This document shows, one piece after another, positions 12,769 through 41,235 of a DNA stretch of 53,497 nt. A program made the position numbers and the translations under genes. The stretch covers positions 1 through 53,497 of the forward strand of contig QHSR01000023.1 of NCBI GenBank assembly GCA_003221635.1. The letters are read 5' to 3'. The notes below the pieces were generated by a model. That model was not told the DNA's origin. It was given only the letters and a program-made list of their open reading frames with translations, and made no database searches. The stretch's first letter is position 1, and the number at the start of each line of letters is the position of its first letter. Origin of the DNA: Candidatus Rokuibacteriota bacterium (GTDB lineage Bacteria; Methylomirabilota; Methylomirabilia; Rokubacteriales; CSP1-6).

Positions 12769-12936
12769 GGGCAGTAGGTCGGGTCGACGGATGCGGCGGG
12801 GGTCGAAGCGACCCGTCCCCGGCACGCGACGACGGGAGTTGCGCGCCCGGATGGAGCCCAGCCGCACCGGAGCAACGGACGCGTGCCGCGTGGTCGTCTC
12901 GACCCCCGCCGCGTCCGTCGACCTGACCTACTGCCC
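12769..12936 (+). repeat. Structured intergenic repeat, copy 1
   Basis: Bases 12769-12806 pair with 12899-12936 in a 38-position stem with no mismatch and only two G-U pairs, enclosing a 92-nt core. The core contains GCGCCCGGATGGAGCCC and ACGCGTGCCGCGTGGT, found again in copies 2 and 3. Inside the core, 12820-12828 pairs with 12880-12888 and CCCGTC (12812-12817) pairs with GACGGG (12831-12836); the two helices cross, as in a pseudoknot. It lies between two co-directional genes. Family not recognised. Confidence 0.8.
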
Positions 12937-15267: not shown

Positions 15268-16794
15268 TCACCTGGCTTTGAGCTTCAGGTCCTCGTAGGG
15301 CGCCGAGTAGGCGTGACCGGGGATGAGGCCGAGCCCCGACTCCTGCACCCGCGGGCCGTGGCCGTTGATGAAGGCAAGCTCCCAGATCGGGATGTGCATC
15401 ACCTTGTCGCGCATGAGCTGCTGGATCTTGTGCAGGAGCGCCTCACGCTTCTTGCGATCGAGCTCGGCCGCCTGGTCCTTGAAGAGCGAGTCGATGTCCC
15501 CGTAGCTGCCGTAGACATAGGTCCCGCCGTTGACGACGAAGGACTCGATCCGCGTCGCCGCGTTGCCGAACGCCCCGCTCGCGGTGTACGCGAGGTTCTT
15601 GTACTTCTTGTCCGCGTAGGTGCTCCAGTGCGATGCCCGCTCGCGCGACACCAGCTTGGTGCGGATGCCGACCTGCTGGAGGTAGCTGGCGATCGCCTCC
15701 TGCACGTTCGCGTACGAGATATCCAGATAGTAGTCGCCCGCGTCGAAGCCGTTCGGGAAGCCCGCCTCGGCGAGGAGCTTCTTGGCCTGGGCCGGATCGA
15801 ACTCATAAGCGGGCGGCTGCCAGTAGAAATCGAAGGTGCTCGGAATGATGCTATAGGTCAGCCTCGAGTGGCCGAGCGTGATCGCCTGGTTGATCGCCTT
15901 GCGGTCGATCGCCAGGTTGGCCGCCAGGCGCACCCGCTTGTCGTGCCAGGGAGACTTGGGGTCCCACTGGTCCAGCATGCTGACCCACTGGGGAGCCTGG
16001 ATCACCGTCGGCTTCAGCGCGAGCCCGGGAGTCCGCAGGAGCTCTTCGGCGAGCTCCCCGCGGATCGAGTACACGATGTCCACCTCGGCGCGTTTCAACG
16101 CGGCGAGGCGGGTCGACTCGTCGGTGATGACCTTGAAGACCAGCCGCTTCACGCTCGGCGTCTTCCGCCAGTACCCCTCGAAGGCCTCCATGACCAGCTC
16201 GACGCCGGGGTTGAACGAGACGAACTTGTAGGGTCCGGCGCCGACCGGCGCCTTCTTGAACGCGTCGTCGCCGACCTTTTCGACATACTTCTTCGGCACG
16301 ATCCAGCCCGCGCCGCTGGCCGCGGTGTAGAACGTCATGAAGTCGGGCCAGGGGTTCTTCAGGCGGAACCTCACCTGCAAGGGGCCCGGCGTCTCGACGG
16401 CGGCGACGCGCTCATGGATGGCCTTGGCGGAAGCGCCCTTGTAGCGCTCGAACGAGAACTTCACGTCCTCGGCCGTGAGCGCGGCGCCGTTGTGGAACTT
16501 CACGCCCTTGCGGAGCGTGAAGTCGTACACGCGCCCGTCCGGCGATACCTGCCACGACTCGGCCAGGCTCGGCGCGGTCGGGTTGCCGGGCATGGCCTTG
16601 GCCAGCGCGTCGTGCAGCGCGTACATGACCATGAAGGGCGTGATGATGCCGAGCGTCTCGGCCGGGTCGAACCATGTCGGCGCGAGCGAGATGTGCACGC
16701 CCCACGTCAGCTGGCCCTCGGGGGCGGCGGCAGCGACCGGGACGACGGCGAGCAGGGCACTCAGGACCCCCACGGCAAGTCGAAGACGGCGCAT
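15268..16794 (-). CDS. ABC transporter substrate-binding protein, family 5
   Basis: 508 residues, paralogue of the protein at 8685-10241. Signal peptide 1-23 (hydrophobic run, VAAAAPEG), then the same motifs: SLAESWQVSPDGRVYDF, LTAEDVKFSFERYKG, GAGPYKFVSFNPG, WDPKSPWHDKRVRLA and the end APYEDLKLKAR. No permease or ATPase gene adjoins it. A GATAAT hexamer (16860-16865, reverse strand) could be its -10 box. Confidence 0.92.
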   Translation of the reverse strand: MRRLRLAVGVLSALLAVVPVAAAAPEGQLTWGVHISLAPTWFDPAETLGIITPFMVMYALHDALAKAMPGNPTAPSLAESWQVSPDGRVYDFTLRKGVKFHNGAALTAEDVKFSFERYKGASAKAIHERVAAVETPGPLQVRFRLKNPWPDFMTFYTAASGAGWIVPKKYVEKVGDDAFKKAPVGAGPYKFVSFNPGVELVMEAFEGYWRKTPSVKRLVFKVITDESTRLAALKRAEVDIVYSIRGELAEELLRTPGLALKPTVIQAPQWVSMLDQWDPKSPWHDKRVRLAANLAIDRKAINQAITLGHSRLTYSIIPSTFDFYWQPPAYEFDPAQAKKLLAEAGFPNGFDAGDYYLDISYANVQEAIASYLQQVGIRTKLVSRERASHWSTYADKKYKNLAYTASGAFGNAATRIESFVVNGGTYVYGSYGDIDSLFKDQAAELDRKKREALLHKIQQLMRDKVMHIPIWELAFINGHGPRVQESGLGLIPGHAYSAPYEDLKLKAR

Positions 16795-16941
16795 CGTCTG
16801 CCTCCTCAGCAGTACGTTGATGTTTCGGGTGCGCGCGGAGCGCGCCGAGCGGCGGCGTCATTATCCTCGCACGACGACGACCCCGAATCGCGGCGCGGCG
16901 CGACGCTGGCGTTACTGCGCATGCTGAGCGACGGCGCGATC

Positions 16942-32117: not shown

Positions 32118-32316
32118 CGCGTAGTGGCCGTGGGCCGCGGGTCAGGTTGACGGGTGCGCTGGGGGTCGAAGGGACCCGTTCCCGGCACGCGGCGACGGGA
32201 GTGGAGCGCCCGGATGGAGCCCAGCCGCACCGGAGCAGCGAACGCGTGCCGCGTGGTCCTCTCGACCCCCAACGCACCCGTCGACCTGACCCGCGGCCCA
32301 CGGTTACTGCGCGTCG
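32115..32316 (+). repeat. Structured intergenic repeat, copy 2
   Basis: Bases 32128-32169 pair with 32262-32303 over 42 positions with one C-A mismatch and one G-U pair, and the stem can extend outward to 32115/32316 with a few more G-U pairs, taking in the MFS stop codon. The 92-nt core differs from copy 1 at fewer than ten positions. Internal helices: 32183-32191 with 32243-32251, and 32175-32180 with 32194-32199. Same orientation as copy 1. Confidence 0.8.
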
Positions 32317-32325
32317 ACTTCGACG

Positions 32326-33441
32326 ATGGAGAGCGCGATAATCCGCGGGGTGAGAGCGTCGGTTTCGAGTCGCACCCGGCTCCGCTGGGTCGCTCCGGCG
32401 CTGTTGCCGGTGATCAACCTCGTCCTGGCGTTGCTGCTCTCCGCGGCCGTGGTCCGCCTGATCGGCGAGAGTCCCGCGCGGGCCCTCTGGCTTCTCGCGA
32501 GCGGCGCGTTCGGCAGCGCCGAGGCCGTCGGCTACACGCTCTACTACGCGACCAACTTCGTCTTCACGGGTCTGGCCGTCGCCGTCGCCTTTCATGGGGG
32601 GCTGTTCAACATCGGCGCGGAGGGCCAGGCGTACCTCGGCGGTCTCGGCGTGGGGTTGCTCTGCCTCGGGGCCGGCGGCTGGCCGACGGCGCTGGTCGTC
32701 CTAGCCGCCGCCGTCCTGGCGGCGGCCGGCGGCGCGGCCTGGGCGTTCGTGCCCGCCTGGCTCCAGGCCCGACGCGGCAGCCACGTCGTCATCACGACGA
32801 TCATGTTCAACTTCATCGCCTCGGCGCTGATGTCACATCTGCTCGTCAACGTCCTGATCAAGCCGGGTCAGCAATCGCCGGAGACGCGTGAGTTCGATCC
32901 GAGCACGTGGCTGCCCCAGCTCCACGACGTGGCGCGCTCGCTGGGCTGGGAGATCGGCCGCTCGCCGCTCAATCTCTCGTTGGTCGTCGCCCTGGCGGCC
33001 GGCGCCGTGGTCTGGATCTATCTCTGGCACACGCGCTGGGGCTACGAGCTGCGGGCCCTCGGCTACAACGAGACGGCCGCCGTGTACGGCGGCATTCGGC
33101 CCGCGACGACGGTGATCGTGGCGATGTCGATCTCCGGGGCGCTCGCCGGGCTGATGAGCCTCAACGAGGTCATGGGGGTGCAGCATCGTTTGCTCCTCAA
33201 CTTCCCCGGCGGCGCCGGGTACGTCGGTATCGCCGTGGCGTTGATGGGACGCAATCATCCACTGGGAATCGTGCTGGCGGCGATCCTGCTCGGCGCCCTG
33301 TACCAGGGCGGATCCGAGCTGTCGTTCGACATGCCGACCCTCACGCGCGACATGGTCGTGGTCATCCAGGGGCTGATCATTCTCGTCTGCGGCGCCCTCG
33401 AGCACGCGCTCCGCCGGCCCCTGGAGGCTTTCGTCCGATGA
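32326..33441 (+). CDS. Nucleoside-type ABC importer permease 1
   Basis: 371 residues, about eight to ten membrane segments (BPD_transp_2 family). Family signatures: VAFHGGLFNIGAEGQ near residue 90, VVITTIMFNFIASAL, LRALGYNETAAVYGGI, and ALAGLMSLNEVMG. It forms the channel with the next permease. GGAG precedes nothing clear; the start lies ten bases after repeat copy 2. Its TGA overlaps the ATG of permease 2 (ATGA). Confidence 0.92.
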   Translation: MESAIIRGVRASVSSRTRLRWVAPALLPVINLVLALLLSAAVVRLIGESPARALWLLASGAFGSAEAVGYTLYYATNFVFTGLAVAVAFHGGLFNIGAEGQAYLGGLGVGLLCLGAGGWPTALVVLAAAVLAAAGGAAWAFVPAWLQARRGSHVVITTIMFNFIASALMSHLLVNVLIKPGQQSPETREFDPSTWLPQLHDVARSLGWEIGRSPLNLSLVVALAAGAVVWIYLWHTRWGYELRALGYNETAAVYGGIRPATTVIVAMSISGALAGLMSLNEVMGVQHRLLLNFPGGAGYVGIAVALMGRNHPLGIVLAAILLGALYQGGSELSFDMPTLTRDMVVVIQGLIILVCGALEHALRRPLEAFVR

Positions 33442-38760: not shown

Positions 38761-39885
38761 ATGAACGGAGCGCTGTCGGGAATCCGCGTCGTCGACATCA
38801 CGAACAATCAGGCCGGTCCCTCGTGTGGCCAGATGCTGGCCTGGCTCGGGGCCGACGTGATCAAGGTCGAGGAGCCGATCAAGGGCGACCCCGCCCGATC
38901 GATGTTGAAGGATAGGCCGGACGCGGACAGCCTGTTCTACCTGTCCTTCAACGCGAACAAGCGCAGCCTGACGCTCAACCTCAAGAACTCTCGCGCCAAG
39001 GATGTGTTTCGTACGCTGCTCCGGACTGCCGATGTGCTCCTGGAGAACTTCGGCCCGGGCGTCCTCGAGCGTCTCGGCTTCGGCTATCCCGAAGTCCGGG
39101 CGCTCAACCCGCGGCTCGTGTACGCGAGCATCAAGGGATTCGGGTCGTACGGGCCGTATCGCGACTACAAGAGCTACGAGCCGATCGCGCAGGCGATGGG
39201 CGGGGCCATGAGCGTCACCGGGTTCCCCGACAGCCCGCCGACCTACGTCTGGCCGTCCATCGGCGATTCGGGGACGGGCATGCACTGCGTGATCGGGATC
39301 CTGGCCGCGCTCATGCAACGCCACGCGACCGGCGAGGGTCAGCAGGTCGAGGTGTCGATGCAGGACGCGGTGGTGAACCTCTGCCGCGTGAGCCTGCGTG
39401 ATCACCAGCGGATGGGCAAGCCGCCGGAGCGAAACGGAAATCAGCTCGGCACGGCGGTGCCCGGCAACACGTATCGCTGCCATCCCGGCGGACCCAACGA
39501 CTACGTGTTCATCTTCACGCAGCAGCAGATGTGGCATCCCTTCCTCCGCGCCATGGGCCGCGAGGACCTCATCGGCGACGCGCGTTACGAGGCCGGCGAT
39601 GCGCGCTGGCGCAACCGCGACGAGGTCAACACCATGGTCGAGGCGTGGACCATGGAACGCTCGAAGCACGAGGTCATGAAGATCCTGGCCGGCGACATGA
39701 TCGTCGAGGTCGAGCACCCGGTGCGAGGGCGCTACATCACCGCGGGTAACCCGGTCAAGCTCTCCGCCTCACCGACGAAGATCTCGACCGCCCCCCTGCT
39801 CGGCCAGCACCGCCGCGAGATCCTCGCCGAGCTGGGATACAGCGAGGCTGACATCGACGCCCTCGCCGCTGACGGATCGATCTAA
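38761..39885 (+). CDS. Family III CoA-transferase with in-frame deletion
   Basis: 374 residues, resembling formyl-CoA:oxalate CoA-transferase-like enzymes. GIRVVDITNNQAGPSCGQ, NANKRSLTLNLK, LLENFGPGVLERLG, and the catalytic-Asp motif IGDSGTGMH near 169 are intact. Near residue 308 the chain passes directly from KHEVMKILAG to DMIVEVEHPVRG. Relatives, including both halves of the double CoA-transferase in this window, have a further 20-30 residues there (a GVxxxxV ... DxHxxxR segment). The frame is kept, so a shorter protein may be made. Substrate unknown; start ATG at 38761. Confidence 0.88.
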   Translation: MNGALSGIRVVDITNNQAGPSCGQMLAWLGADVIKVEEPIKGDPARSMLKDRPDADSLFYLSFNANKRSLTLNLKNSRAKDVFRTLLRTADVLLENFGPGVLERLGFGYPEVRALNPRLVYASIKGFGSYGPYRDYKSYEPIAQAMGGAMSVTGFPDSPPTYVWPSIGDSGTGMHCVIGILAALMQRHATGEGQQVEVSMQDAVVNLCRVSLRDHQRMGKPPERNGNQLGTAVPGNTYRCHPGGPNDYVFIFTQQQMWHPFLRAMGREDLIGDARYEAGDARWRNRDEVNTMVEAWTMERSKHEVMKILAGDMIVEVEHPVRGRYITAGNPVKLSASPTKISTAPLLGQHRREILAELGYSEADIDALAADGSI

Positions 39886-39907
39886 CGCAGGGTCCCGTCC
39901 GCGAACT

Positions 39908-40070
39908 GGGGCGACCGGCGGCCAGGCGTGTACGGCAGGGGCCGCACCACGCGGCACGCGTGCGCTGCTCCGGGGTTGCCGGGCTCCATCCGGGCGCTCC
40001 GCGCCCGTCGCCGCGTTTTGGGAACGGGTCCGGTCGCCGCTCCCGCACACGCCTGGCCGCCGGTCGCCTC
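39908..40070 (-). repeat. Structured intergenic repeat, copy 3 (inverted)
   Basis: Bases 39908-39931 pair with 40047-40070 over 24 positions with no mismatch. Read on the reverse strand, the core again holds GCGCCCGGATGGAGCCC and ACGCGTGCCGCGTGGT, with CCCGTT/GACGGG facing each other as in copies 1 and 2. The interior between the stem arms is longer (115 nt), and the terminal stem is a third, unrelated sequence. It lies between the CoA-transferase and alanine racemase genes, opposite in orientation to both. Confidence 0.75.
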
Positions 40071-40104
40071 CTGAGCGCTAACATGGTTTTGGAGATGGGA
40101 CATA

Positions 40105-41235
40105 GTGGCTGAGCGCATTCGGCCGACCGTTGCGCGCGTCGATCTCGGCGCGCTCAAGTCGAATTACCGTGCGATCGTCGACCATCTCAGCCGCGAGCGG
40201 CCGGTGGGAATGCCTGGAGTGATCGCGGTCGTCAAGGCGAATGCCTACGGTCACGGCGCCGCGCAGGTTGGGCGGGCGCTCGAGGACGCTGGCGCCGACC
40301 TCCTGGCATGCGCCGACATCGAGGAAGGCGCGGCGCTACGGGCGGCGGGCGTGCGCGCCGAGATCCTGATCTTCGGTGCGCTCAGCGTCAGCGACCTCGA
40401 TGGGCTGTTCGACTGTCGGCTTACGCCGACGATCTCGTCGCCGGGCGCCGCCCGGGCCGTGCAGGCGGCCGCGGCGCGGCGCACGCAGCGTCTCCGCTAC
40501 CATCTGAAGATCGACACCGGCATGAACCGACTCGGTTTCCGCTTCGACAACCTGCGGCGCACGCTGCCCGAGCTACTCCGGAGCGAGAACCTCGATCTCG
40601 ACGCGGTCTTCACGCACTTCGCGACGGCCGACGATCCCGCGTCATCGCTCTTCGACGAGCAGCGCCGGCGCTTCGACCAGGCGCTCGCAGATCTGAACGT
40701 GCTGGGCGCGCGGCCGCGCTACCGGCATGCGGCCAACAGCGCCGCACTCGTGCGCGACCCGCGCGTCTGGTTCGATCGCGTGCGGCCGGGCCTCTTGCTC
40801 TACGGGATGGTGCCCCCGCCCCTCACGTCGACGATCGCGCTCGCCCCGGTCATGACGCTCGCCAGCCGCGTGACCGCCGTCAAGGGCATGCGGGCGGGCG
40901 AGGTCACCGGCTATGGCGCCCGCTTTGCCGCCACGCGCCCGACGACGATCGCGATCGTGCCGGCGGGCTACGCCGACGGGCTCGACCTGCGGCTGGCGGG
41001 CCGCGGCGCCGTGCTCATCCGAGGCCGCCGGGCGCCGATCGTCGGATCGGTCTGCATGGACATGCTCATGGCGGACGTGACCGGTCTGGACGCGTCGCCC
41101 GGTGACGAGGTCGTCATCATTGGGCGCCAGGGCAGCGACACAATCGACGCCCGTGAGATGGCCGACACCATCGGGTCGATTCCCTGGGAGATCGTCTGCC
41201 GCGTCGGCAGCCGGATCGAGCGCGTCTACGCTTGA
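40105..41235 (+). CDS. alr: Alanine racemase
   Basis: 376 residues, full length. PLP-binding lysine in AVVKANAYGHG near 44, RYHLKIDTGMNRLGF, HAANSAAL, RPGLLLYGM, the second catalytic residue in TGYGARF near 269, and IVGSVCMDMLMADVT. It makes D-alanine for peptidoglycan. Starts at GTG with GGAGATGGGA upstream; TAACAT (40079-40084) could be the -10. Preceded by repeat copy 3. Confidence 0.96.
   Translation: MAERIRPTVARVDLGALKSNYRAIVDHLSRERPVGMPGVIAVVKANAYGHGAAQVGRALEDAGADLLACADIEEGAALRAAGVRAEILIFGALSVSDLDGLFDCRLTPTISSPGAARAVQAAAARRTQRLRYHLKIDTGMNRLGFRFDNLRRTLPELLRSENLDLDAVFTHFATADDPASSLFDEQRRRFDQALADLNVLGARPRYRHAANSAALVRDPRVWFDRVRPGLLLYGMVPPPLTSTIALAPVMTLASRVTAVKGMRAGEVTGYGARFAATRPTTIAIVPAGYADGLDLRLAGRGAVLIRGRRAPIVGSVCMDMLMADVTGLDASPGDEVVIIGRQGSDTIDAREMADTIGSIPWEIVCRVGSRIERVYA

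Follow-up and report, generated by a model that had tools for sequence, protein, structure and literature searches.

Hairpin repeats between genes of Rokubacteria as very probable MITEs of the IS630 family

Among known elements, the one most similar to the repeats described here is the RUP MITE of Streptococcus pneumoniae, which has been ascribed to IS630-Spn1 and targets sites containing TA (PMC2229807). Like RUP, the Rokubacteria element is a small, intergenic, non-autonomous repeat whose termini match an IS630-family insertion sequence and whose probable target contains TA. RUP is 107 bp long with 9-bp terminal repeats (PMC2229807), whereas the Rokubacteria element measures 235–263 bp with terminal repeats of ~29 bp. 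Unlike RUP, it carries an 86-nt conserved core and hypervariable arms that covary, and it is placed exactly at TAG stops. Duplication of TA is the rule for the IS630 family (PMC2170065). The terminal inverted repeats and the DDE transposase of IS630 and ISY100 have counterparts here, as, probably, do their TA target and the preference for TA within CTAG (Tenzen and Ohtsubo, 1991, cited there). IS630 and ISY100 are autonomous (PMC2170065), while the Rokubacteria element codes for nothing and shares convincingly only its termini with its partner insertion sequence, L439.

Two further systems are similar in part. Nezha of cyanobacteria is an ISNpu3-like MITE that has been proposed to move in trans by means of an insertion sequence with matching termini (cited in PMC3049150). 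The likeness is one of description, not of sequence, and the passage on Nezha there mentions neither stop-codon placement nor covarying arms. SPRITE repeats of the pneumococcus are hairpins enriched near gene 3' ends and suspected of co-option by the host. An 18-bp SPRITE stem is followed by a U-rich tract (PMC3049150), whereas no T-tract lies behind the Rokubacteria stems: a T-run of at least four within 30 nt was seen at 5 of 410 ends, against a background of 1%, and a SPRITE-like intrinsic terminator was rejected. A literature search for MITEs or intergenic repeats of Rokubacteria found no relevant paper.

Three hairpins in the window and their family

The window is the whole 53,497-nt stretch of Candidatus Rokuibacteriota DNA that was analyzed. 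It holds three hairpins that had already been noticed in the first-pass annotation; they are real, with slightly changed limits.

12769–12936, + strand: copy 1, read as an eroded type-A hairpin MITE; arm 12769–12806, core-containing loop, arm 12899–12936
12810–12895, + strand: conserved 86-nt core of copy 1
32128–32303, + strand: copy 2; arm 32128–32169, core-containing loop, arm 32262–32303
32173–32258, + strand: conserved 86-nt core of copy 2
32316–32330, + strand: eroded right terminal repeat of copy 2 (GACTTCGACGATGGA; p=0.003)
39910–40068, − strand: copy 3; arms 39910–39931 and 40047–40068 enclosing the core
39946–40030, − strand: conserved core of copy 3, 85 nt
39889–39905, unstranded: eroded terminal repeat of copy 3 on the window-left side (AGGGTCCCGTCCGCGAA; p=0.003)
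40079–40105, unstranded: eroded terminal repeat of copy 3 on the window-right side (TAACATGGTTTTGGAGATGGGACATAG; p=0.003)

The near-perfect stems of copies 1, 2 and 3 have 38, 42 and 22 pairs and close loops of 92, 92 and 115 nt. The first two stem lengths reproduce those given before, while the third had been put at 24. The 92-nt cores claimed for copies 1 and 2 correspond to the measured loops, whose conserved part is ~86 nt, and both core motifs quoted at that time were found in the copies. Fold z-scores against shuffles are -10.5, -15.8 and -6.9, respectively, and no comparable hairpin occurred in 453 kb of block-shuffled DNA. An enzyme gene accompanying the copies was rejected, as their neighbors are ordinary metabolic genes, and the earlier remark that no transposase lies beside them stands.

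That annotation had also expected many copies per genome, and the source genome (5.17 Mb in 335 contigs, 88.8% complete) contains ~40 distinct copies by BLAST and 51 covariance-model hits. All nine genomes examined in the genus carry 10 to 51 such hits, the relatives' counts being lower bounds because scoring covered just a part of the candidates. Some copies also occur in six other genera of this family. None was found in 16 genomes that belong to the order or class but to different families, nor in the viral contigs, plasmids and phages searched. In a pattern scan of genome contigs, all among the matches listed belonged to Candidatus Rokubacteria/Rokuibacteriota. The genomes used are mostly metagenome assemblies. 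A search of Rfam, which had been suggested earlier, gave no family match at either gathering or permissive thresholds.

Elements turn over among relatives at the identical gene pairs that flank copies 1–3. At the site of copy 1, a type-A element is absent from G003, G005 and G008, and G006 and G007 retain a decayed remnant of the core's 3' part. At the sites of copies 2 and 3, type A is found in some relatives, in one case inverted, and a second hairpin family in others; copy 2 has an orthologous copy in G001. Divergent, head-to-head pairs spaced 250–400 nt apart are frequent (G002:C69:114069/114347, G004:C93:42055/42293, G000:C3:52925/53242, G000:C101:3673/3941 and others).

The conserved core of ~86 nt starts with GACCCGTTCCC and ends with GCGTGCCGCGTGGTC, and around it lies a stem of 30–45 bp in which the letters of the arms differ almost wholly between copies while pairing is retained. 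Among 182 copies, chosen beforehand as having 26 or more of 34 pairs, Watson-Crick pairs make up 92.6%, compared with 43.9% when the 3' letters are redealt among copies. An alignment of 20 sequences has 96.2% of its cells paired (62.8% shuffled, 0 of 500 shuffles reaching the observed value) and a covariation score of 0.815, against 0.177 shuffled and ~0.13 slid. Pairs vary on both sides at 26 of 30 positions, as expected from the earlier description of divergent stems with pairing kept. This covariation and the pairing excess over shuffles argue that the repeats are not due to chance. In type A, G strongly predominates in the 5' arm (2323 G vs. 872 C), and the 3' arm is rich in C, a skew that holds on both strands because the stem is palindromic. 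In some copies, the core has kept just its 3' part (L306:8816–8928, L307:7809–7893, L238 and L241), and a perfect outer stem still closes those at L306 and L307.

Intergenic hairpins near gene 3' ends, often in head-to-head pairs, would suit REP/REPIN-like repeats spread by a Y1 (RAYT) transposase. However, a Y1_Tnp gene was found in 0 of 9 genus genomes, compared with 5 of 14 control genomes, and IS630 termini are present instead. This origin, to which the first-pass annotation could not match the repeats, is thus highly improbable.

Transposon termini and an IS630 partner

The earlier reading was incomplete in that it ended at the hairpin and missed transposon termini outside the stems. Comparing the arms beyond the stems revealed an outward-facing terminal motif, mostly 45–65 nt from the core, that ends in GACGGAACACTAG. 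A search with this motif was positive in 13 of 40 genomes of the family (reversed control, 0), and the motif often forms inverted pairs ~260 bp apart. In better-preserved relatives, the whole element is 235–263 bp long with ~29-bp terminal inverted repeats (CTAGTGTTCCGTCCnCGAAnTCATGTTAA) and the core inside; deletion forms are 107–165 bp. From one end to the other it consists of a terminal repeat (~29 bp, ending in CTAG), a variable arm, the 86-nt core, the complementary arm and the second terminal repeat. Copy 2 had hinted that the arms arose by inverted duplication of the insertion flank, an origin we dropped because the arms lie within complete elements. Insertion of the core into pre-existing terminator hairpins was rejected as well, long hairpins without a core being too rare. 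In one genome, G054, copies are 85–98% identical over exactly 261 bp and have unrelated flanks; precise ends of this kind show recent mobility.

The window copies were compared with a profile built from 36 TIR-bearing elements, none of them from the window. All three match, copy 1 with E=2.8e-24 over 12780–12926, copy 2 with E=5.6e-29 over 32147–32329 and copy 3 with E=2.5e-26 over 39918–40102, and they belong to the same family. Eroded terminal repeats are retained at three of the six window ends, as listed above, with none recognizable at the ends of copy 1. In the source genome as a whole, the terminal motif exceeds the 99% shuffle level at 8 of 84 ends. An ACATGA flank motif was considered as a host promoter and rejected, as no more than 12 of 650 gene-upstream regions contain it and it is sharply placed outside the stems, gene-3' sides included.

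These termini also bound a 1145-bp insertion sequence in G060 (L439). The 352-aa protein that it encodes, at L439:1390–2448 on the minus strand, belongs to the IS630 family of transposases (NCBIfam NF033545, 248 bits vs. a cut-off of 100; Pfam DDE_3). A second transposase gene with an intact terminal repeat is present in G018, and a complete autonomous insertion sequence was found in one genome only. When the small elements were aligned with the insertion sequence by BLAST, the similarity was convincing at the ends only. Since the terminal repeats are common to the small elements and an IS630-family insertion sequence, we conclude that the repeats are very probably gene-less MITEs of the IS630 (Tc1/mariner) family, with a probability of about 0.92. 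What looked like an RNA mystery becomes a family of mobile elements whose partner enzyme can be seen. The label of an unrecognized family is justified as far as Rfam goes, but given the shared termini the repeats are, in kind, elements of a known family. While the kind of element is known, a long stem with conserved pairing and a core that outlasts the transposon ends are unusual.

An IS630-type transposase encoded elsewhere in the cell would cut and paste the element. No DDE_3 gene was found in G000, G045, G049, G054 or G061. The source genome has no DDE_3 match, which is not proof of absence because that assembly is 88.8% complete. Given the nearly identical copies in G054, the active transposase may be encoded on DNA missing from the assemblies, or its loss may be recent. 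A 1180-bp pair of terminal repeats in G054 was rejected as an insertion sequence, as it encloses host coding sequence and no transposase. A separate ~92-bp repeat lies near a MITE at L419:264–356 (G054:C123) and has ~25 copies in G054 at 91–100% identity.

Placement at stop codons

Of 44 complete or shortened elements, 34 have an outer CTAG that coincides base for base with the TAG stop of the neighboring gene. Six of these 34 lie between convergent genes and have TAG stops at both ends, both genes keeping their stop. All intact ends read CTAG, which is why the gene retains its TAG stop, and the coincidence of the terminal CTAG with that stop accounts for the position of the elements right behind genes. 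The target itself is unevenly distributed: in 453 kb of the source genome, where 87% of the sequence is coding, only 22 of 147 CTAG sites are within genes and 50 are stop codons. As CTAG is scarce in genes and common at TAG stops in these GC-rich genomes, copies land on stop codons. Insertion into CTAG would duplicate TA, and the CTAG end of the element would restore the TAG stop of the gene. We infer this chemistry, like the TA duplication, from the termini and their placement, since searches for empty sites returned no clean one. In a GC-rich genome, a transposon that targets CTAG can in this way settle on stop codons without harm, rebuilding the stop. A literature search on IS630, stop codons and CTAG found no title or abstract describing such placement.

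Gene ends in this analysis come from a simple purpose-written caller rather than from annotation. By this measure, the gene ahead of a copy has a TAG stop in 37 of 44 cases outside the genus of the window, against a background of 29% (p=3e-12), and in 37 of 87 cases within that genus, against 28% (p=0.006), a weaker excess that is expected if old copies have since changed their stop. The stops adjacent to the window copies are TGA, TGA and TAA, so stop-codon placement rests on the relatives and not on the window; non-TAG stops are consistent with old age of these copies. The window-left terminal repeat of copy 3 sits 3 nt behind a stop codon at 39883–39885 (CTAA), perhaps a former CTAG, and its window-right repeat touches the start of the next gene. 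Overall, the core lies a median of 67.5 nt from the adjacent stop codon. Copies lie between convergent genes in excess and seldom between divergent ones, and their orientation to the gene ahead is close to random. The copies in the genus of the window look old, with mostly eroded terminal repeats and some altered TAG stops, but with core and pairing still in place.

Persistence of the core and the stem

A MITE origin alone leaves this persistence unexplained. In orthologous copies, the core is 83.8% identical, compared with 72.1% for third codon positions, 69–70% for the arms (near neutral) and 55–66% for the former terminal region; between unrelated copies, the values are ~80% for the core, ~60% for the arms and ~46% for the former terminal region. 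With the core above third codon positions and the ends lowest, core and pairing outlast the ends, although the conservation between orthologues could be inflated by re-insertion at the same site or by gene conversion. The annotation had taken the hairpin to be under selection, which core conservation and covariation make plausible rather than proven, as copying of DNA from arm to arm fits the compensated changes too.

Such copying, by template switching or hairpin repair and without selection, is a possibility that we place slightly short of even odds, and it is compatible with a MITE origin. It would account for the 44 complete Watson-Crick replacements against 14 half-changed pairs, for arms that evolve near the neutral rate, and for G-C to C-G flips being the most frequent double change. 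Among the paired changes there are 20 transitions and 24 transversions, a ratio similar to that of the flanks (ts/tv 0.61). However, it accounts neither for a conserved core that is not palindromic nor for the excess of G-U over A-C mismatches (106 vs. 49).

That excess, which is similar in both orientations to the host gene, would instead suit a structured non-coding RNA, in which core and stem are transcribed and act while the transposon ends are incidental or ancestral; in a weaker form, hairpins of MITEs at gene 3' ends would have been adopted by the host after mobility was lost. The strong covariation and a core more conserved than third codon positions and the former terminal region point the same way, but covariation shows a helix and is not specific to RNA. 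Rfam returned no family, its sole hit being to a long-hairpin miRNA model and lying far under the cut-off of that model. Orientation to the preceding gene is nearly random, paired changes show no preference for transitions through G-U, and the location behind genes already follows from the CTAG target. An RNA role, judged from sequence, therefore seems rather unlikely, and it would not exclude the MITE origin. Covariation statistics alone, it should be cautioned, can make a MITE look like a structured RNA.

The MITE origin that we prefer could also have had a later history. We suggest tentatively, at clearly less than even odds, that after the transposase was lost the host adopted dozens of stop-codon MITEs per genome as maintained 3'-end elements. 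The core would be under purifying selection and the 35–45 bp stem kept paired, possibly aided by arm-to-arm copying of DNA, making these repeats a widespread exapted class in Rokubacteria. With so many copies available, mutual correction of paired DNA arms can be weighed against selection for hairpins.

Other long hairpins occur in the same genomes. In G006 and G008, the same gene ends carry a second family, type B, with a core containing GGGCGAGTGGGTGAC and stems of 36–42 bp. Type B hairpins lie at the following loci:

L356:4508–4670
L360:16502–16652 and 16779–16928
L228
L226
L232

The hairpin at L356 is flanked by inverted CTAGCCGGGATTGTTCATGAAC-like ends and so looks like another CTAG-ended MITE. 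Long hairpins with other cores and stems of 36–47 bp were seen in Rokubacteria at L315:18135–18269, L362:8031–8183, L089:1916–2075 and L139:6086–6223, and a coreless hairpin with a perfect 33-bp stem and a 10-nt loop lies at L312:1093–1168 (G000:C178).
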